Source: Clostridium sp. OS1-26 (GTDB taxonomy: Bacteria > Bacillota > Clostridia > Clostridiales > Clostridiaceae). Taken from it: a DNA stretch of 64,000 bases. The stretch lies in the NCBI RefSeq assembly GCF_030915445.1, contig NZ_CP133264.1:620001-684000 (forward strand). Reading direction: 5' to 3'. Position 1 is the first letter of the stretch, and every line of letters begins with the position of its first letter. The notes beneath the pieces are model-generated. The model was not told the DNA's origin. It was given only the letters and a program-made list of their open reading frames with translations, and did no database searches. Shown here in pieces: positions 6,585-64,000 of this stretch. The position numbers and the translations under genes are program-made.

Positions 6585-6801
6585 CGCTTAATAGATTTTC
6601 TACATATAGGATTAAAAATCCTCTATTAAGCAGACATCCAAAATCTTAAGTAGGCATCCAAAATCTATGATTTTGAGATGATCACTTACACAGAGTGTTG
6701 ATTTTGTGATGATTGCTTAAGCAGATAACTCAAATCTCTGATTTGAAGTGAATCGCTTACTCAGCGAGTACTCATTCGACGAAAGGAGAAGGAGTTTCAT
6801 T
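6585..6801 (-). repeat. Family A interspersed mosaic repeat, copy 1
   Basis: Fills most of the 325-base gap between tgt and yajC. In minus orientation it begins with the family start GAAACTCCTTCTCCT about 15 bases after the tgt stop, then CGTCGAATGAGTACTCGCTGAGTAAG, followed by three or four degenerate units of about 30-40 bases built around small palindromes such as CAAATCAGAGATTTG and joined by GCTTAAGC. It ends in a nine-pair stem CTTAATAGA/TCTATTAAG not present in the other copies. No ORF or mobile-element gene is present. Confidence 0.85.
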
Positions 6802-6816
6802 TATATAACTACTATT

Positions 6817-10720: not shown

Positions 10721-10869
10721 CCTCCTTTTAGTCGGAACACTGAGCAATTAAATCACTGGGTTGCCTAGCCAGTTTCCTTGGCTAGGCAGCCCGTTAAAGT
10801 CCATTTAGGACTTTAACCTCGCTCCCGCTCGCTAATTGCTCGTTAAAGCCTATTTAGGGCTTTAACCTT
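10721..10869 (-). repeat. Family B structured leader element before ruvA
   Basis: Read on the minus strand it starts with a hairpin GTTAAAGCC/GGCTTTAAC with an A/T-rich loop. Then a nine-pair outer stem GAGCAATTA/TAATTGCTC encloses GAGCGGGAGCGA, a second hairpin GTTAAAGTCC/GGACTTTAAC with loop TAAAT, and a third stem GCCTAGCCA/TGGCTAGGC. It ends with GTGTTCCGACTAAAAGGAGG, seven bases before the ruvA ATG. The same 20-base end and the same arrangement of stems occur at 11760-11916 in the opposite orientation. No matching riboswitch class is known to me. Confidence 0.8.
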
Positions 10870-11564: not shown

Positions 11565-11759
11565 AATATCCCTCCTCATAAATATTATGGACAATTACCT
11601 TATGTGTTATTCATTTTTATGCATGTTTTTATAACAAATTAATTAATTAGCAACAAAACGTCCATCCCATCTTTAACTTGTCATTTTATTTTAGGTTCCT
11701 AAGTAATAAAATTATTTTTTAAAGAAACAATATTTATATAATATTATTATATATGCGGA

Positions 11760-11916
11760 GGTTAAAGTCCTAAATGGACTTTAACGGATAATTTTGCTAG
11801 GTAAAAGTTCTAAATGAACTTTTACAGGTAACTTGTGAGCGGAAGCGAACATCTTAAGTTACCCCGTTCCCGAAGGGGAACGAGCAAAATTACCTGGTGT
11901 TCCGACTAAAAGGAGG
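11760..11916 (+). repeat. Family B structured leader element before the orphan small gene
   Basis: Occupies the gene-proximal half of the 360-base gap between the divergent bofC-like gene and the small gene at 11925. It starts with hairpin GTTAAAGTCC/GGACTTTAAC, then a ten-pair outer stem TAATTTTGCT/AGCAAAATTA encloses three hairpins: GTAAAAGTTC/GAACTTTTAC, GGTAACTT/AAGTTACC (containing GAGCGGAAGCGAAC) and CGTTCCC/GGGAACG. It ends in GTGTTCCGACTAAAAGGAGG eight bases before ATG. The rest of the gap (11565-11759) is A/T-rich promoter-like sequence with nothing else recognisable. Confidence 0.8.
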
Positions 11917-13070: not shown

Positions 13071-13145
13071 CTTAATTACCTCCTAGATTTACGGTTTATA
13101 TAAAATTATTTTAAATTAAGTTTAAATTAAAAAACAGTTAAAACT

Positions 13146-13324
13146 AATGAAACTCCTTCTCCTATCGTCGAATGAGTACTCGCTGAGTAAGCGATTCACT
13201 TCAAATCAGAGATTTGAGTTCTCTGCTTAATCGATCATCTCAAAATCAACACTCTGTGTAAGTGACTATCACCAAATCAAAGATTTGGGATATCTACTTA
13301 AGATTTTGGATGCCTGCTTATGTA
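13146..13324 (+). repeat. Family A interspersed mosaic repeat, copy 2
   Basis: Fills most of the 321-base gap between yigZ and yebC. It starts AATGAAACTCCTTCTCC and runs through TCGTCGAATGAGTACTCGCTG, then palindromic units CAAATCAGAGATTTG, a unit with AACACTCTGTGTAAG, and CAAATCAAAGATTTG, ending in CTGCTTATGTA. It is nearly identical to copies 5 and 6 over its second half. Confidence 0.88.
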
Positions 13325-20561: not shown

Positions 20562-20628
20562 GTGGCTCCAAAGCCACATCAGAAGCTATTTTATTCACAT
20601 CCTTTAGATTTGCTCTTTATATATTTAT

Positions 20629-20714
20629 AAATGAAACTCCTTCTCTTTTCGTCGGATGAGTACTTGCTGTGTAAGTGACCATCTGAAAATCACAGATTTT
20701 AGATGCCTGCTATG
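20629..20714 (+). repeat. Family A repeat, short degenerate copy 3
   Basis: Starts AATGAAACTCCTTCTC, then TCGTCGGATGAGTACTTGCTG and one palindromic unit AAAATCACAGATTTT, ending ATGCCTGCTATGTG. It lies in the 323-base gap between hpt and the penicillin-binding protein gene; the remaining sequence of that gap is the hpt terminator, a small GTGGCT/AGCCAC hairpin and promoter-like A/T-rich DNA. Confidence 0.75.
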
Positions 20715-25412: not shown

Positions 25413-26240
25413 ATGGATATGTGGTTAAAAGAAGGTCAAATAGAGGATGCTGCTATGACCTACAAAATAAAAGAAACACTTGTTACAAAGAAAACTGAAT
25501 ATCAAGATTTGGCTATAGTTGATACATATGCTTTAGGCAGAATGCTGGTTCTTGATGGTATAGTACAAACTACGATAAAAGATGAATATGTTTATCATGA
25601 AATGATAAGCCATATTCCACTATTTACTCATCCAAATCCTAAAAAGGTTCTTGTAGTTGGTGGTGGAGATGGAGGCGCTATTAGAGAAGTGCTTAAACAT
25701 CCATCAGTGGATAAAGCAGTATTATGCGAGATAGATAAAAATGTTGTTGATGAATGTAAGAGATTTCTTCCGGAAATAAGCTGTGCATTAGAGGACCCGA
25801 GATGTGAAGTGTTTATTGGTGATGGTATAAAATACGTTCATGAGCATAAGAATGAGTTCGATGTTGTAATTGTAGACTCAACTGATCCATTTGGCGCTGC
25901 TGAAGGATTATTTGGTGGAAGTTTTTATAAAGAAATATTTGAATGCTTAACTGAAGATGGAATATTTATAGCACAAACTGAAACTCCATTCTATCTTCCA
26001 GATGTAGTAAAACGAGTTTATGAAGATGCTAAAGCAGTCTTCCCAATTACAAAGCTATTCATGGCAGGTATTCCAACTTATCCGAGTGGATTTTGGAGTT
26101 TCACTGTAGGTTCAAAGAAATATGACCCAGAAACTATTGACCTATCAAATACCATAGATATAGAAACTAAATATTATACTAAAAAGCTTCATAATGCATG
26201 CTTTGTTCTTCCTAAGTTTGTCGAAGATCTAACAAAATAA
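25413..26240 (+). CDS. speE: Spermidine synthase (polyamine aminopropyltransferase)
   Basis: Transfers an aminopropyl group from decarboxylated SAM to putrescine. The 275-residue protein has the nucleotide-binding [18 protein letters not shown] near residues 78-95 and the catalytic [16 protein letters not shown] segment near 152, with the C-terminal [17 protein letters not shown] precedes ATG 25413. No speD is beside it; a SpeA-type decarboxylase is encoded at 56129. Its transcript ends in the minimal form of family C. Confidence 0.96.
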
Positions 26241-26257
26241 AATATGTGACACATTTT

Positions 26258-26326
26258 TATAGAGAAACTAACTAGAAAGTTAGCTTATACCGGCGTATAA
26301 GCTAACTTTCAGTCTAGTGCCCTATA
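26258..26326 (+). repeat. Family C element, minimal form, after speE
   Basis: Core 26275-26310 is a perfect 16-pair stem GAAAGTTAGCTTATAC/GTATAAGCTAACTTTC with loop CGGC. Outer parts TATAGAG and CCCTATA match the ends of the long copy at 60109-60370. It starts 17 bases after the speE stop. Compared with the long copies, an A-T pair is a G-C pair (GTTAGC/GCTAAC for GTTAAC/GTTAAC), which keeps the pairing. No T run follows. Confidence 0.8.
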
Positions 26327-26404
26327 CAGGTGTTATGTCGCAAAATTTTTATATTATAATTCAATCTTATCCGTTATTATTTACAATCTCAATCTCTTCT
26401 TCAG

Positions 26405-37901: not shown

Positions 37902-37976
37902 AATGAATCTCCTTCTCCTTTCAGTCGAATGAGTAAGCGATTCACACAAAATTAAAGATTTTGGTTCTCTGCTTAT
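37902..37976 (+). repeat. Family A repeat, short copy 4
   Basis: Starts AATGAATCTCCTTCTCC, then TCGAATGAGTAAGCGATTCAC and one palindromic unit AAAATTAAAGATTTT ending TTCTCTGCTTA. It overlaps the last codons of the glycosyltransferase gene if that gene's frame is restored. Confidence 0.75.
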
Positions 37977-40383: not shown

Positions 40384-40413
40384 TTTCTCCCACCTACTTT
40401 ACAATATATTAAT

Positions 40414-40605
40414 AATGAAACTCCTTCTCCTATCGTCGAATGAGTACTCGCTGAGTAAGCGATTCACTTCAAATCATAGATTTGAGTTCTCTGCTTAAGC
40501 GATCATCTCAAAATCAACACTCTGTGTAAGTGACTATCACCAAATCAAAGATTTGGAATATCTACTTAAGATTTTGGATACCTGCTTATGAAACTCCTTC
40601 TCCTT
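40414..40605 (+). repeat. Family A interspersed mosaic repeat, copy 5
   Basis: Full copy beginning AATGAAACTCCTTCTCC with units CAAATCATAGATTTG, AACACTCTGTGTAAG and CAAATCAAAGATTTG, and ending with a second partial start, TTATGAAACTCCTTCTCCTT, so a new copy seems to begin at once. It fills the gap between two polysaccharide genes, ending four bases from the stop of the glycosyltransferase gene. Confidence 0.88.
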
Positions 40606-58297: not shown

Positions 58298-60058
58298 TTA
58301 CTCACCAACCTTTTCTATGGCATCGAATTTACATACTTGTTTACATAATTCACAGCCGTTACACATATTTTTATTAATACTTACAACATTATTTTTAAAT
58401 TCAAGTGCTGGACACCCTGTTTTTAAACAAGCCTTACACTTCTTGCAGTTTTCAGTTTGTATATTGCAGTGCATGTTAGCTCTTCTCTTTATTACGTCCT
58501 TCTTTAAAGCACAAGGCTGTTTTGTTATTATTACAAATGGTTCAGTGCTATCGTGTGCAGCTTTTACCGCTTCTTCTGTAGCTTTCAAATTATAAGGGTC
58601 TACAACTCTTAGATTTTCTTCCTTAATTCCAAGTGAAAGCACTACCTTTTCAATATCAACAATTGGAGCTGCCTTACCTTGAAGGGTTTTACCAGTACCT
58701 GGATTTTCTTGATGTCCAGTCATTGCTGTAATACTATTATCTAATATACAAGTAACAATAGGTGTACTGTTATATATAGAATTAATAAGTCCTGTAATTC
58801 CTGAATGGAAGAAAGTTGAGTCTCCTATAAAGGCAAAAACCTTATTATTTCTTCCTGCTATTTGATTTGCTTTTTCTAAACCAATACCAGATGAAACAGA
58901 TGCACCCATACATACGCAAATATCTGTAACATTAAGCGGTGCAACTAACCCTAATGTATAACATCCTATATCTCCTGATGCTATAACATCTTTGTATTTA
59001 GATACAGCATAAAATATTCCTCTATGTGGACATCCAGGGCATAATACTGGCGGTCTTGATGGTGCTTGAATATCAGTTTTATAGCTTTCTACCTTGCTTT
59101 CTCCAAGCATAGCTTTTCTTATGATATCTGAGCTTAATTCTCCACAAATAGGAATAATTTCTTTTCCAGTACACTGTATTCCCATAACCTTAATTGCATT
59201 TTCAATATATGGTTCATTTTCTTCTACTACATATAGCTTGTCAACTTTTGAAGCAAATTCTTTGATTAGTTTATCTGGCAATGGATAACTCATACCTATT
59301 TTTAATATAGAAGCCTTATCACCAAGCACCTCTTTTACATATTGGTATGAAATTCCACTAGTAACAACTCCTATTTTAGAATCTGCCATCTCTATTTTAT
59401 TTAGGCCACAGCTATTTGAGTACTCCTGTAGTTTTTTAAGTCTTTCTTCAACTTCATAATGTTTTTTTCTAGAATGTGCTGGTATCATAACATACTTTTG
59501 AATATTTTTTTCGTAAGGTTTTACTCCTACTTCTTCTCTTTCTCCAAGTTCTACTACACTTTTAGAGTGAGATACCCTTGTTGTAGTTCTAAAAAGAACT
59601 ACAGTATCAAATTGTTCACTTATTTTAAAAGCTTCCTTCATAAAATCTTTGCATTCCTGTGAATCAGATGGTTCAACCATAGCAATTTTTGCATGTGGTG
59701 CAAAAAGTCTATTATCCTGTTCATTCTGAGATGAATGCATACCTGGATCATCTGCACTAACTACAACAAATCCTCCGTTAACTCCCTCATATGCGATAGT
59801 GAAAAGTGGGTCTGCAGCTACATTTAGCCCAACATGCTTCATTGTAGTCATACTTCTTGCTCCACCTATAGCTGCACCAGCTGCAACTTCTAAGCCAACC
59901 TTCTCATTTGGAGCCCATTCAGCATATATTCCATCATAGGTAGAAAGATTTTCTAATATTTCTGTACTTGGTGTTCCTGGATAAGCTGAAGCAACAGTAC
60001 ATCCAGCTTCATAAGCACCTCTTGCTATAGCTTCGTTACCTGTCATAATTACTTTCAT
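58298..60058 (-). CDS. iorA: Indolepyruvate:ferredoxin oxidoreductase alpha subunit
   Basis: Thiamin-pyrophosphate catalytic subunit of 586 residues. N-terminal pyrimidine-binding domain (GNEAIARGAYEAGCTVASAYPGTPSTEI in part), PP domain with CPGCPHRGIF, GDIGCYTLG and GDSTFFHSGITGLINSIYN, then two [4Fe-4S] ferredoxin motifs at the end (CKKCKACLKTGCP and CNGCELCKQVCKF). Used in aromatic amino-acid fermentation. The next gene upstream on this strand is ptb, separated by a family C element. Confidence 0.96.
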   Translation of the reverse strand: MKVIMTGNEAIARGAYEAGCTVASAYPGTPSTEILENLSTYDGIYAEWAPNEKVGLEVAAGAAIGGARSMTTMKHVGLNVAADPLFTIAYEGVNGGFVVVSADDPGMHSSQNEQDNRLFAPHAKIAMVEPSDSQECKDFMKEAFKISEQFDTVVLFRTTTRVSHSKSVVELGEREEVGVKPYEKNIQKYVMIPAHSRKKHYEVEERLKKLQEYSNSCGLNKIEMADSKIGVVTSGISYQYVKEVLGDKASILKIGMSYPLPDKLIKEFASKVDKLYVVEENEPYIENAIKVMGIQCTGKEIIPICGELSSDIIRKAMLGESKVESYKTDIQAPSRPPVLCPGCPHRGIFYAVSKYKDVIASGDIGCYTLGLVAPLNVTDICVCMGASVSSGIGLEKANQIAGRNNKVFAFIGDSTFFHSGITGLINSIYNSTPIVTCILDNSITAMTGHQENPGTGKTLQGKAAPIVDIEKVVLSLGIKEENLRVVDPYNLKATEEAVKAAHDSTEPFVIITKQPCALKKDVIKRRANMHCNIQTENCKKCKACLKTGCPALEFKNNVVSINKNMCNGCELCKQVCKFDAIEKVGE

Positions 60059-60108: not shown

Positions 60109-60370
60109 TATAGGGAAATTAACTAGAAAGTTAACTTATACAGAGGGATATGTTTCCAAAGCTGAAGTAGATTTAAAAACTTTGTGCCAGTCTTAGTGAA
60201 GGGTTTTAAGAGAACCTTAGAACTTTAGAGTTGTTTGAGCATAGCGAGTTCTCGAAAGTTCTTAGGTTGTCTTGAAACACAAGCTTTAGACTGGCTAAAA
60301 GTTTTTAACGTGCTAAAGCTTGGAAACATATCCCGGCGTATAAGTTAACTTTCGGCCTAGAAACCCTATA
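60109..60370. repeat. Family C long hairpin element, copy 1
   Basis: Core 60126-60353 (228 bases): ends GAAAGTTAACTTATAC/GTATAAGTTAACTTTC, then GGGATATGTTTCC/GGAAACATATCCC, CCAGTCT/AGACTGG and an inner stem CCTTAGAACTTT/AAAGTTCTTAGG around the loop GTTTGAGCATAGCGAGTT. Outer TATAGGG/CCCTATA adds seven pairs. It begins 16 bases after the ptb stop on the minus strand and fills most of the 328-base gap to iorA. It has no coding capacity. Confidence 0.85.
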
Positions 60371-60386
60371 AACGATTTCAAGTATA

Positions 60387-61283
60387 TTATGAAATTACTG
60401 ATCCAAGTGCTATTGAATAAAGTTTAGATTCAGCGCTATCGGCTCTCGATACTAGAACTACAGGACACTTAGCTCCCATAATAACTCCTGCACTTTGAGC
60501 ATTAGCAAAGTATGTCATTGATTTTCCAAGAAAATTACCTGATTCTATATTTGGAACTAAAAGTATATCTGCATCCCCTGCCACATCACTAACAATTCCT
60601 TTATGTTCAGCTGCTATCTTAGATATAGCATTGTCTAAGCCTAAAGGACCATCAATTATACATCCCTTGATCTGCCCTCTCTTATTCATTTGGCTAAGTA
60701 CAGATGCATCTAAAGTTGCTTGCATTCCAGGGTTTACTACTTCAACTGCACAAATTGGTGCTATTTTAGGCATGTCTAATTCTAATTTATGTGCTACCCT
60801 AACAGCATTATTTATGATTCCTATTTTATCTTCTAAAGTAGGATATGGAACCATGCCTCCATCAGTTAAAAATATAAGTTTATGATATGTAGGAACTTCG
60901 TAAACCATAACATGTGAAAGTAATCCCTTTCCTCTTAACCCTGCTTCTTTATTTAAGACAGCTCTTAATAGATCTGCAGTACCAAGTAATCCTTTCATGA
61001 TGTAGTGTGCTTGTCCATTAGATACAAATTCAACAGCCTTTGCTGCTGCTTTTAATATGTTTTTTTCATCTACTATTTTTATATTATCTAAGGATAATCC
61101 ATTTTCTTCAGCTATGCTTTTTATTTTATCTTCATCACCAACTAAAATTGCATCTACGATTCCAAGCTTAACAGCCTCAGTTACTGCACTTAAAACCTCT
61201 TTATCATGTGCTGCCGCCACTGATAAAGTCTTTTTTTCTTTTGATTTGGCTAAACTTAAAATTTCATCTAACTTTTTTACCAT
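60387..61283 (-). CDS. ptb: Phosphate butyryltransferase-type acyltransferase
   Basis: Exchanges CoA for phosphate on an acyl-CoA. The 298-residue protein shows SVAAAHDKEVLSAVTEAVKLG, AILVGDEDKIKSIAEE, MKGLLGTADLLRAVLNKEAGLR and the ANAQSAGVIMGAKCPVVLVSRAD end typical of Ptb. No butyrate kinase gene is adjacent. Placed next to iorA-iorB, it could release energy from aryl- or branched acyl-CoA made by IorAB as an acyl phosphate; this is inference. AAGGAGG precedes ATG 61283. Confidence 0.88.
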   Translation of the reverse strand: MVKKLDEILSLAKSKEKKTLSVAAAHDKEVLSAVTEAVKLGIVDAILVGDEDKIKSIAEENGLSLDNIKIVDEKNILKAAAKAVEFVSNGQAHYIMKGLLGTADLLRAVLNKEAGLRGKGLLSHVMVYEVPTYHKLIFLTDGGMVPYPTLEDKIGIINNAVRVAHKLELDMPKIAPICAVEVVNPGMQATLDASVLSQMNKRGQIKGCIIDGPLGLDNAISKIAAEHKGIVSDVAGDADILLVPNIESGNFLGKSMTYFANAQSAGVIMGAKCPVVLVSRADSAESKLYSIALGSVIS

Positions 61284-61445
61284 GATTATTTCCTCCTTAT
61301 TATATTAATAAGTATCGTAAGTCAAATATTTATAATAACTAATTTTCTAAATATTTGCACTTAATAATAATTATAGCATCAGATTATGGCATTTACAATG
61401 CACAGTTATACTGCTAATGAATTTAAAGCTTTATAAAATAAGATA

Positions 61446-61474
61446 AGTGATAAATTCAAAAGGAATTTATCACT
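61446..61474 (-). terminator. Terminator-like hairpin after the FMN dehydrogenase gene
   Basis: Twelve-pair stem AGTGATAAATTC/GAATTTATCACT with a five-base loop, 20 bases beyond the stop. On the minus strand TATCTTATTTTA follows. Confidence 0.65.
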
Positions 61475-61494
61475 CATTAGATATTCTTTACTAT

Positions 61495-62508
61495 TTAGTA
61501 TATAATTCTATCAGTAACATCTTTTACTGTTTTACAACCTGTTAATACCATAGCTGATTTTAATTCGCTTTTTAAAGTATCTACATAAAGCTTAACGCCT
61601 TCTCGTTGTGCACCAAAAGAAGCCGTTACAAAAGGCCTTCCAATAAGTACAGCATCAGCTCCTAATGCTATCATTTTAAGAACGTCTACACCATTTCTTA
61701 CTCCACCATCTGCAAGTATTGTAACCTTACCTTTAACAGCCTGTGCTATTTCAGGAAGTACATCTGCAACTCCAGGAGTTTGGTCTAATACTCTTCCCCC
61801 ATGGTTAGAAACTACTATTGCATCAACACCAGCCTTAACAGCAAGTTCCGCTTCATCTGCTGTCATTACTCCTTTTAATATAAATGGTAATTTTGTACTA
61901 TTTACAATTTCTTTAATATCTTCTACAGTTTTAGGACCAACTGGTTTCCCATGAAGCGCTAAAGTTATAAGACCTGCAGCGTCTATATCCATTCCAACAG
62001 CAAAAGCTCCTGCTTCCTCAGCAAGCTTAATTTTCTTTATTACATTACTATTTTCCCAAGGCTTTATTATGGCAATTCCTTCTCCATTAAATTTCTTCAA
62101 TTGTTCTAAATTTGTTATTAAGAATGAGTCTACAGCAGTATCTCCTACCATAGGATAAACACCTGAGTCCAAGCATCCACCTATCACCCATGAAATATAT
62201 TCTTCTTCTGTAAACTTGCCGCCCATATTTAATGTAGTACCAGATACAGGGGCAGCAAATACTGGAACATCCATCTTCTTTCCAAACAGTTCAATTGAAG
62301 TATCAGGGTCTTTAGCATCATGTATTACTCTCATATTTAATTTGTATGAATCTAAAGCTTCTACGTTAGCTAAGAATGCATCGCCAGTTCCTTTTCCACC
62401 CATCCCTGGTACTTCTCCAGCACAGGCTTTACCATTGCACACTGGGCAAACTCTGCAGCTTCCATTTAGATTTTCACGAGCGCTTTTTAATAATTCTTTG
62501 TAGTTCAT
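61495..62508 (-). CDS. FMN-dependent alpha-hydroxy-acid dehydrogenase with cysteine-rich N-terminus
   Basis: A 337-residue TIM-barrel protein of the lactate oxidase/glycolate oxidase family: VFAAPVSGTTLNMGG, IIKPWENSNVIKKIKLAEE, PFILKGVMTADEAELAVKAG, the active-site VVSNHGGRVLDQTPG and VTILADGGVRNGVDVLKMIALGADAVLIGRP (in part). The N-terminus carries CRVCPVCNGKAC (Cys18, 21, 24, 29), absent from oxygen-using lactate oxidases. In an anaerobe I infer electron transfer to another acceptor, perhaps through an iron-sulfur or metal site. Substrate unknown. Confidence 0.87.
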   Translation of the reverse strand: MNYKELLKSARENLNGSCRVCPVCNGKACAGEVPGMGGKGTGDAFLANVEALDSYKLNMRVIHDAKDPDTSIELFGKKMDVPVFAAPVSGTTLNMGGKFTEEEYISWVIGGCLDSGVYPMVGDTAVDSFLITNLEQLKKFNGEGIAIIKPWENSNVIKKIKLAEEAGAFAVGMDIDAAGLITLALHGKPVGPKTVEDIKEIVNSTKLPFILKGVMTADEAELAVKAGVDAIVVSNHGGRVLDQTPGVADVLPEIAQAVKGKVTILADGGVRNGVDVLKMIALGADAVLIGRPFVTASFGAQREGVKLYVDTLKSELKSAMVLTGCKTVKDVTDRIIY

Positions 62509-62549
62509 TAATATCTCCCCCTTCTTTTGACCTACCTAAACATCCTTTG

Positions 62550-62580
62550 GGGTTAAATGCCCAAATAGCATTTAACGGTT
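62550..62580. repeat. Family B short hairpin upstream of the FMN dehydrogenase gene
   Basis: GTTAAATGC, loop CCAAATA, GCATTTAAC. It lies 42 bases upstream of the gene start in the 421-base gap 62509-62929; that gap otherwise holds a family A copy and A/T-rich sequence with a small TCTCAA/TTGAGA stem near 62889-62907. Confidence 0.55.
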
Positions 62581-62628
62581 ACCCTGCCTTAGATCGAAGA
62601 CAATACCTCATCTGATGTATATTCTATT

Positions 62629-62807
62629 TAATGAAACTCCTCTTCGCAAACTCTAAGAAGCAAGCGATTTATACAAAATCATCACTCTGTGTAAGCGATC
62701 ATCTCAAAATCAACACTCTGTGTAAGTGACTATCACCAAATCAAAGATTTGGGATATCTACTTAAGATTTTGGATGTCTGCTTAAGATTTTGATTCTCTG
62801 CTTATGT
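62629..62807 (+). repeat. Family A interspersed mosaic repeat, copy 6
   Basis: Starts AATGAAACTCCTCTTCG with a divergent first unit, then two AACACTCTGTGTAAG-type units (the first as CATCACTCTGTGTAAGCGAT), CAAATCAAAGATTTG, and two extra AAGATTTTGGAT-type half units ending CTGCTTATGTAA. The middle is nearly identical to copies 2 and 5. Confidence 0.87.
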
Positions 62808-62929
62808 AAAAATTACTGATAGGCCATCGTTCCTTTAAAGTATTAAATTATTTAGGTTCACAATTTAATTATAGTTTATTAGTTTTAAATCTCAACTATT
62901 ATTTTGAGAATTAAAGAATCTTTAATTTA

Positions 62930-63400
62930 TTATTTATTTTCTATACCTATATTATCAATGTCATCTTCTTCAGTATAAACCTTAATTCCATTTCTTTTTA
63001 AAAGTTCAGCAGTGACCCCATTCCCATCAATCTTACTTCCTGTAAATGTTCCATCATAAATTTTACCAAATCCACAGGAAGGACTTCTAGCCTTTAGTAT
63101 GGCTACCTTTGCATCACATTCTTTTGCTATTTTAAGAGTTTCATATGCTCCTCTTATAAATTCTTCTGTAGCATCATCACCTTCTGGTCCTAAAATTCTA
63201 GCCTTTCCATCTAATATATCGGCACCTGTTCCTTTAAATATCTCGTGTGCAGCTCTAGGTGTACTTTGCCCTCCTAGTTGTTCTGGGCAAACTGGTATAG
63301 CTTTACCCTCTCTCAAAAGCTTTAGCACTCTTTCATCCAGGTTATTTCCACCATTATACTTAGTATTAATTCCACATAAACAAGCACTTACTATAATCAT
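62930..63400 (-). CDS. DUF523 family protein
   Basis: A 156-residue protein of the DUF523 family: VSACLCGINTKYNGGNN at the start, VCPEQLGGQSTPR and ILKARSPSCGFGKIYDGTF with conserved cysteines that may bind a metal or cluster. Function is unknown; some relatives are fused to DUF1722, and a role in thiouracil desulfidation has been described for one subgroup. AGGGG precedes ATG 63400. It stands between mutS2 and the FMN dehydrogenase gene. Confidence 0.85.
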   Translation of the reverse strand: MIIVSACLCGINTKYNGGNNLDERVLKLLREGKAIPVCPEQLGGQSTPRAAHEIFKGTGADILDGKARILGPEGDDATEEFIRGAYETLKIAKECDAKVAILKARSPSCGFGKIYDGTFTGSKIDGNGVTAELLKRNGIKVYTEEDDIDNIGIENK

Positions 63401-63447
63401 TAAATCACCCCTAATTATATAAACTAAGTTCTAGAGCTAACCACCTT

Positions 63448-63675
63448 GAAAGTTAACTTATACAGAGGGATATGTTTCCAAAGCTGAGTGTGCATTTAAA
63501 AACTTTGTGTCAGTCTTAGCGAAGGGTTTTAAGACAATCTTAGAACTTAGATACTGTTTGAGCAGAGCGAGTTTATCTAAGTTCTTAGGTCGTCTAAAAC
63601 ACAAGCTTTAGACTGACTAAAAGTTTTTACCGTACCAAAGCTTGGAAACATAGACCGTCGTATAAGTTAACTTTC
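63448..63675. repeat. Family C long hairpin element, copy 2
   Basis: 228 bases, the same length as the core of copy 1 and matching it along its whole length. Ends GAAAGTTAACTTATAC/GTATAAGTTAACTTTC; TCAGTCT/AGACTGA replaces CCAGTCT/AGACTGG of copy 1; the inner stem is CTTAGAACTTAGATA/TATCTAAGTTCTTAG around GTTTGAGCAGAGCGAGTT. It begins 13 bases after the mutS2 stop on the minus strand and fills most of the 288-base gap to the DUF523 gene. Confidence 0.85.
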
Positions 63676-63688
63676 GGTACTACATCTT

Positions 63689-64000
63689 TTATTTTAACTC
63701 TACTACTGTAACTCCAGTTCCACCTTCTCCATACTCTCCTAATCTATAATTTTTCACATGAGTATGTCTTTTAAGCATGTCATTTATTGCATTTCTAAGA
63801 ACTCCTGTGCCTTTACCATGAATAATGGTTACTTCCTTTAATCCAGCCATATAAGCATCATCTAAATATTTATCCACAGTATACGATGCCGCTATTGAAT
63901 CCATTCCTCTTAAATCTACAGATGAAGAAACAGATCTTAAATTTAGTTTTGCTTCCCTTTTCATCATTTTCTTTTCTTCTTTTGATTGACCTTTAGAAGC
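63689..64000 (-). CDS. mutS2: Endonuclease MutS2, C-terminal Smr domain (partial)
   Basis: Only the last 103 residues are in the window; the gene runs past position 64000. The segment [33 protein letters not shown] and [13 protein letters not shown] is the Smr nuclease domain that ends MutS2, preceded by a lysine-rich linker ([18 protein letters not shown]). MutS2 suppresses recombination and rescues collided ribosomes in Bacillus. A stand-alone Smr protein is excluded as the frame stays open to the window edge. Confidence 0.88.

Follow-up and report, generated by a model that had tools for sequence, protein, structure and literature searches.

This analysis concerns a window of 64,000 nt from Clostridium sp. 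OS1-26 (contig NZ_CP133264.1, positions 620001-684000 of the 5.88-Mb single-contig home genome, G000) and a hairpin element within it, Family C, to which an earlier inspection of the letters (the sequence-only reading) had drawn attention. As judged from its sequence, Family C is probably a miniature inverted-repeat transposable element (MITE) of IS630 type, moved in trans by an IS630-family transposase; we put the probability of this at roughly 0.8. The window holds two long copies and a minimal form, which lie among the following genes and features.

60109..60370, + strand: Family C copy 1, whole unit (17-nt end TATAGGGAAATTAACTA, 228-nt core 60126-60353, 17-nt end GGCCTAGAAACCCTATA)
60233..60250, + strand: tip of copy 1 (GTTTGAGCATAGCGAGTT)
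63431..63692, + strand: Family C copy 2, with decayed ends (228-nt core 63448-63675)
63556..63573, + strand: tip of copy 2 (GTTTGAGCAGAGCGAGTT)
26258..26327, + strand: minimal form of 70 nt with a 36-nt core (26275-26310), made of two abutting 35-nt ends
26240..26349 (approximate), no strand: sequence of the outer palindrome enclosing the minimal form (TATGTGACACA ... TGTTATGTCGCA)
60387..61283, - strand: ptb, phosphate butyryltransferase gene, upstream of copy 1
58298..60058, - strand: indolepyruvate ferredoxin oxidoreductase alpha gene, downstream of copy 1
63689..64000, - strand: mutS2, 3' part only (the gene runs off the end of the window), upstream of copy 2
62930..63400, - strand: 2-thiouracil desulfurase family gene, downstream of copy 2
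25413..26240, + strand: speE, spermidine synthase gene, upstream of the minimal form

The two 228-nt cores and the 36-nt minimal form are present where the sequence-only reading placed them, and the two cores are identical at 202 of 228 positions. Its gene assignments (ptb, mutS2, and speE) also hold, as the names of the genes next to the window copies are backed by NCBIfam or Pfam, the mutS2 piece being the C-terminal part only. Its extent of the element was too short, however: the unit runs 17 nt beyond the core on both sides (TATAGGG...CCCTATA). The reported start at 13-17 nt past a stop codon is right for ptb (16 nt) and speE (17 nt) when counted from the true element end, whereas for mutS2 the figure of 13 nt is the distance to the core of copy 2, and the mutS2 stop in fact reaches 4 nt into the 17-nt end of that copy. 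The minimal form is indeed two end repeats back to back, but its proposed origin by loss of the interior is unsupported. The folding energies of the two cores are -113.5 and -103.3 kcal/mol (z ∼ -14), and none of 200 shuffles folded as low. Neither the window, nor the hairpin near copy 1, nor the hairpins of 7 + 16 related loci gave an Rfam match that reached the gathering score; matches of microRNA type on these hairpins were weak and far under the cut-off.

Ends, copy number and the link to IS630

With copy 1 as query, the home genome gave 32 full or near-full-length places and partial ones among the best 40 of 138 candidates. The end stem at up to two mismatches gave 218 + 219 matches, compared with 63 + 94 for the reversed control. 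Ends were paired in the copies and in 50 further regions; 83 pairs were obtained and 72 were kept after 11 had been dropped (second pairings of one site, a poor pair, and a sibling element). These 72 foldback elements are not a census, because some known copies with decayed ends (e.g., 2965889) fall outside the set. Their cores measure 36-365 nt, 11 of them 36-40 nt. When the 72 were aligned on their cores, conservation extended past them by exactly 17 nt at either end and no further, giving the outer sequences TATAGGG(n)AACTA on one side and GGCCT(n)CCCTATA on the other, i.e., the sharply bounded, TA-ended terminal inverted repeats that a MITE has. The elements are also short, multi-copy, and devoid of protein-coding content, as expected of a MITE: in the 40 elements with cores of at least 200 nt, the longest closed reading frame had a median of 40.5 and a maximum of 77 codons. 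Nothing similar to copy 1 was found in plasmid and phage records at distant-search sensitivity.

The link to IS630 comes from the ends and from the distribution of the transposase. The DDE_3 domain (the IS630 catalytic domain) was detected in four of the 27 genomes examined (G000, G004, G006, and G008), and among the seven genus members searched it occurs in exactly the three with full-length elements (G000, G004, and G006). In G001, G003, and G005 the matches to copy 1 are internal only, and in G002 the match covers 29 nt. The IS630 element of the sister genome G004 is 1194 bp long, and its two 33-nt ends differ from the majority 3' end of Family C by 7 and 8 mismatches (25-26 of 33 positions alike), from the majority 5' end by 11-12, and from the closest single element end by 6-7. 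For comparison, every 33-mer of the window outside the copies has at least 11 mismatches, and copy 2's own decayed ends lie at 10-11. IS630-like ends are thus present in a sister genome, as for a MITE of the IS630 group. The home genome itself has a truncated relative, 68% identical over the 3' part of the G004 insertion sequence and carrying a TATAGGG end, and two IS630 copies with TATAGATAA ends that are 99.3% alike over 1216 bp. The IS630 transposase is read as two overlapping frames, each with an IS630 match below the NCBIfam cut-off for single halves.

Related genomes also provide empty sites. G001, G003, and G005 lack the copy in the ptb gap, but G006 has it, so this copy is probably older than the split between G000 and G006. 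The mutS2 gap is empty in G006, with 14 nt from the stop codon to the next ATG. Site 3018702 is likewise empty in G006 (19 nt), and the comparison of GACT-TA/TAGGG..CCTA/TA-AATAC in G000 with GCTTAAAGG in G006 fits a TA duplication. At four of six further sites tested, at least one sister genome lacks a recognizable Family C copy or has another hairpin; one of the six gave no comparison. With sharp ends, many dispersed copies, IS630-like ends, and sites that are empty in sister genomes, a non-autonomous hairpin element, one of two options in the sequence-only reading, is borne out, and on the grounds of ends, size, lack of coding, and copy number we concluded that Family C belongs with the IS630-group MITEs. 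In the proposed mechanism, the element would consist of ∼33-35-nt ends of IS630 (Tc1/mariner) type (TATAGGG ... AACTTATAC) with no evident gene, an IS630-family transposase would act in trans and insert it at TA dinucleotides, and the insertions would survive mainly right behind stop codons. Several points weigh against this assignment. G013, which belongs to another genus, has elements and no DDE_3 match; G008 has DDE_3 and no match to copy 1; no complete IS630 with TATAGGG ends was found in the home genome; and the IS630 and MITE ends are alike, not identical. The junction at mutS2 is inexact as to target duplication, and we infer the transposition step and the TA duplication, the latter from one clean site (3018702).

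Several other repeats were observed near or inside these elements. At the mutS2 3' end, each of G003, G004, and G005 (L133, L121, and L131) has a differing inserted hairpin-like sequence, as if this were a recurrent landing place. Outer palindromes with TATGCGACA-like arms enclose Family C copies in the window (26240-26349) and in the home genome (50364, 211794, 433376, 1069739, 1318915, 1593847, and 843946); they are either nested foldback elements or the result of insertion into an older palindrome. In a sibling set of small foldback elements (764132 and 106623 in the home genome; L372 and L375), the ends are of TATAGATAA type and, by eye, look like those of the home genome's two near-identical IS630 copies. 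The window also contains a second repeat family of tandem 46-nt hairpin units (D1-D3) at 13145-13322, 40413-40590, 62609-62786, 20625-20711, 37930-37975, and 6626-6805 (minus strand). Longer pieces of this family lie, by eye, inside elements 1694149 and 4132684, and copies 282391 and 4622132 have in common an insert of ∼50 nt at the same stem position that is, again by eye, a unit of D2; this composite was either copied whole or formed by insertion of the unit twice at one spot. A perfect 30-nt inverted repeat pair at 10791-10820 and 11758-11787 of the window, 937 nt apart (I9), possibly marks the ends of another mobile element.

Placement at gene ends and pairing of the stem

Gene calls were based on open reading frames, and 71 of the 72 elements had neighbors on both sides: 39 lie between tandem, 29 between convergent, and three between divergent genes. 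One divergent call is a miscall, as site 3018702 lies between two short same-direction genes (72 and 49 codons in G006), and 40 tandem, 29 convergent, and two divergent are therefore nearer the truth. From TA dinucleotides in the 59 gene pairs of the window, a small reference set, 52 tandem, 6.6 convergent, and 12.3 divergent would be expected. In the tandem gaps the median distance is 4 nt from stop codon to element and 92 nt from element to the next start; 20 of the 39 tandem elements lie within 5 nt of the stop, as opposed to 10% of TA sites, and in seven tandem cases the stop codon falls within the first five bases of the element. Random placement relative to gene ends, which would have spoken against the sequence-only reading, is thus not the case: the copies concentrate at gene 3' ends. 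Placement at gene ends is thus supported, but the proposed targeting of transcript ends is not, because tolerance of such insertions would produce much of this pattern.

Orientation follows the genes. Of 38 tandem cases, 33 have the tip-bearing strand antisense to the genes (33:5, p 4e-6). With an approximate origin and terminus taken from GC skew, replication was rejected as the cause: the tandem bias stays tied to the gene whether that gene runs with replication (27:4) or against it (6:1), and convergent copies have no bias (15:13). The antisense bias is not universal. In two other genomes that carry the tip sequence described below, it is reversed (Flavobacterium G471, 2 of 14 tandem copies antisense) or absent (Clostridium G467, 6 of 14). 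The outer flanks of the elements pair with each other beyond permuted flanks (410 of 864, compared with a permuted mean of 361.8 and a maximum of 408 in 2000 permutations), and sister genomes have other, terminator-like hairpins at the same gene end at sites 205211 and 211794; some copies therefore lie in older palindromes or have replaced them. A stronger version, in which the element always inserts into terminator loops, was dropped: two empty sites in G006 are gaps of 14 and 19 nt from stop to ATG, and site 206814 is without a hairpin by eye in G001 and G005.

To describe the stem, we aligned 42 full-length copies (28 from G000, one from G004, and 13 from G006), a selection of those at hand. 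The RNAalifold structure has 63 pairs, and 97.8% of the cells pair. The compensatory base changes that had been noticed in the two window copies are real, as both partners have changed in 25 of the 63 pairs (119 cells). The observed covariation was reached in none of 500 shuffles, and a shift of the partner by 1-3 columns destroyed the signal. In a tree null, in which the inferred substitutions were redistributed over the tree in 300 runs, the mean G statistic was 2.6 (highest run mean 5.5), compared with 8.5 observed, and the paired fraction was 0.856 (highest 0.904), compared with 0.978 observed. No single pair of the 63 passed a family-wise, tree-aware threshold, and the covariation is therefore real in sum and unproven pair by pair. 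The significant covariation over many copies on which the sequence-only reading depended is accordingly found against both nulls as a whole, not for any one pair. Of its proposal of selection on structure in 3' untranslated RNA, selection on structure stands in sum; a plain function in RNA of the 3' untranslated region does not follow, because the selected-looking strand is antisense to the upstream gene in the 33 of 38 tandem cases given above.

The hairpin tip and its strand

The matches of copy 1 to other families of the order fall mostly in its apical third (query ∼66-139 and 90-165; f2 and f3). The tip TGTTTGAGCGNAGCGAGTT occurs in 13 of 398 Bacillota genomes, with more than one copy in 11 of the 13; the reversed control gave none. 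A scan with the exact pattern GTTTGAGCNNAGCGAGTT found at least 115 genome stretches and 97 viral stretches. The genome scan alone proves little, because ∼120 chance matches are expected by arithmetic, and it is the control-matched counts that carry weight. Hairpins were called by arm scores, because an 8-pair criterion would let through 462 of 3000 random sites. By these scores, 65 of the 107 distinct genome sites lie above the 99th percentile of random-site arm pairing, and ten perfect pairs beside the tip are found at 42% of the 107, compared with 0.25% of random sites. Among the matches listed, record titles name Ralstonia, Variovorax, Haemophilus, Rodentibacter, Flammeovirga, Cellulophaga, Flavobacterium, Desulfobacterales, Lachnospiraceae, and Patescibacteria; several of these records are isolates and others are metagenome bins with possible contamination. 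In 32 genomes chosen for having the tip, 29 have at least two copies and up to 59, with one control match in all. The open NN of the scan pattern reads GN in 112 and AN in 12 of 126 hairpin sites. A T precedes the motif at 124 of the 126, and also at 73 of 85 sites failing the criterion (19 of 20 in genomes); since it is nearly as common at failing sites, it supports the relatedness of the sites and not the hairpin criterion.

Within single genomes the tip is constant and the stem is not. Clostridium G467 has 39 exact tips, 35 with one mismatch (an identical T-to-C change in 30), one with two, and three with three mismatches, compared with 21 for the reversed control at up to three mismatches; 69 of the copies differ at only two positions. 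In the 22 copies with an exact or T-to-C tip in the stretches examined, there are 18 sequence variants of the 14-bp stem next to the tip, and in all 22 copies 13 or 14 of the 14 pairs are Watson-Crick, with swaps such as A-T to C-G. Flavobacterium G471 has 28 exact tips, one with one mismatch, and one with three, and its reversed control gave no exact match, although at up to three mismatches the control count (32) equals or exceeds that of the tip (30). In Flammeovirga, Flavobacterium, Haemophilus, and Variovorax (L143, L187, L191, L154, and others), a second hairpin, rich in CTTTCTTT/AAAGAAAG, often comes after the one with the tip, a layout that recurs across phyla.

The arms of the hairpins carry a strand asymmetry. 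With arms aligned by identity only, so that G.T and A.C were counted alike, the tip strand of 91 genome hairpins has 151 G.T and 81 A.C, with more G.T at 52 loci and more A.C at 16 (sign test, p 1.4e-5). Among the tip-bearing elements of the home genome (n = 30), which are related copies and not independent, 21 have more G.T and two more A.C; its short elements (n = 28), mostly without the tip, have no G.T excess (6 vs. 12). Neither do 23 viral hairpins, which lean the opposite way (5 vs. 11, p 0.21). In the genome set, the G.T excess therefore suggests that the tip strand is the one that folds, whether as RNA or as single-stranded DNA, and that this folding has been under selection.

The central GCGNAGC of the tip is an unusually stable DNA mini-hairpin. 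In our proposal the interior hairpin tip TGTTTGAGCRNAGCGAGTT would be a module of wider spread than Family C, and the tip-bearing strand would fold as RNA or single-stranded DNA and be bound by a conserved factor. We see about even chances for a reading in which hairpins in several phyla, on stems that are unrelated, have in common the tip T-GTTTGA-GC-RNA-GC-G-AGTT (R = purine, N = any base) as a strand-specific recognition module so far undescribed; the stem would be free if paired, a conserved factor would hold the tip nearly constant, and the IS630-type MITE would be one vehicle. That the module rides mobile or dispersed palindromes, often at gene ends, could equally go either way. Four points count against such a module: the genomes were sampled by the tip itself, palindrome-specific mutation is possible, the viral set is silent, and there is no known binder. 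In the literature searched, outside which lay most subscription journals and all preprints, we found no description of the tip motif, or of its mini-hairpin in connection with repeat families or dispersed structured repeats.

Alternative explanations and relation to known repeats

The elements might instead be 3'-end RNA structures (terminators, attenuators, or mRNA stabilizers) kept for the gene they follow, with mobility secondary or past. The strong 3'-end placement and gene-related orientation favor this, as do the other terminator-like hairpins at the same gene end in sister genomes (two sites), the copy old enough to be common to G000 and G006, and the covariation in sum. Yet it is usually the strand antisense to the gene that has the G.T excess, several sister sites are without any hairpin, and the orientation is reversed in Flavobacterium G471 and absent in Clostridium G467. 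Nor do the elements look like intrinsic terminators, in which a hairpin is directly followed by a T run: at least five T in eight positions occur in 23 of 144 flanks, compared with 9.4% at random positions, a slight excess only. We consider this explanation rather unlikely, although it is the strongest of the rivals. More doubtful still is that the compensatory changes arise from palindrome-specific mutation (template switching between arms) and not from selection on a folded strand. Such mutation would keep hypervariable stems paired without function, as in the 22 copies of G467, and the viral subset, where 5 loci have more G.T and 11 more A.C, is in line with it; but it leaves unexplained both the near-invariance of the non-palindromic tip in G467 and the strand-specific G.T excess of the genome hairpins (52 vs. 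16 loci). A third idea concerns the mover: the elements could be of the REP/RAYT kind and owe their movement to a Y1 (IS200-like) transposase that works on single-stranded hairpins, given their long imperfect palindromes with a conserved tip and the presence of Y1_Tnp in 33 of 44 genomes examined, G000 included. This is weakened by the lack of Y1_Tnp in G001, G013, G302, and G415, which bear elements or the tip, while Y1_Tnp is common in genomes with neither; together with the IS630-like ends of the elements, this makes it very improbable.

As an IS630-type MITE, Family C is closest in kind to RUP of Streptococcus pneumoniae and IS630-Spn1 (PMC2229807, PMC3049150, PMC2267715). RUP is described as a small non-coding repeat of 107 bp with TA ends, is thought to be moved in trans by IS630-Spn1 on the basis of like terminal repeats (PMC2229807, PMC3049150), and is over-represented between convergent genes (PMC3049150). 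Neither the tip module nor the antisense bias appears in the accounts of RUP consulted (PMC2229807, PMC3049150). Family C also differs from the 107-bp RUP in its cores of 36-365 nt, and, as judged by eye, in ends and interior. BOX of S. pneumoniae is a set of modular repeats of varying size at gene 3' ends, which supply the stop codon in 36 cases (PMC3049150); it resembles Family C in placement, variable size, and stop-codon overlap, and is unlike it in its boxA/B/C modules and in its proposed link to the ends of ISSpn2, not of IS630. Correia/NEMIS of Neisseria has TA ends, long hairpin transcripts, and long and short forms, with RNase III cleavage reported (PMC2229807); TA ends, long hairpins, and the two forms recur in Family C, whereas the end sequences and size classes are different. 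The Nezha MITE of cyanobacteria is proposed to be moved by ISNpu3-like elements via shared terminal repeats (PMC3049150), and, from that description and not from sequence, it is similar to Family C in having terminal repeats in common with a larger element.

The MITE nature of Family C is thus of a known kind, and its tip lies outside that kind. Among bacterial repeats whose ends link them to a transposase, Family C, as a MITE, is a further case, from Clostridium, and it is a sharp example of insertion at stop codons with a strand bias. The tip sequence, which also caps hairpins with unrelated stems in several phyla, may be a signal so far unnamed. If it is indeed a cross-phylum module, some bacteria would carry tens of copies of a structured signal that is in no Rfam family, and its binder could be fished out directly using the 19-nt tip as bait.

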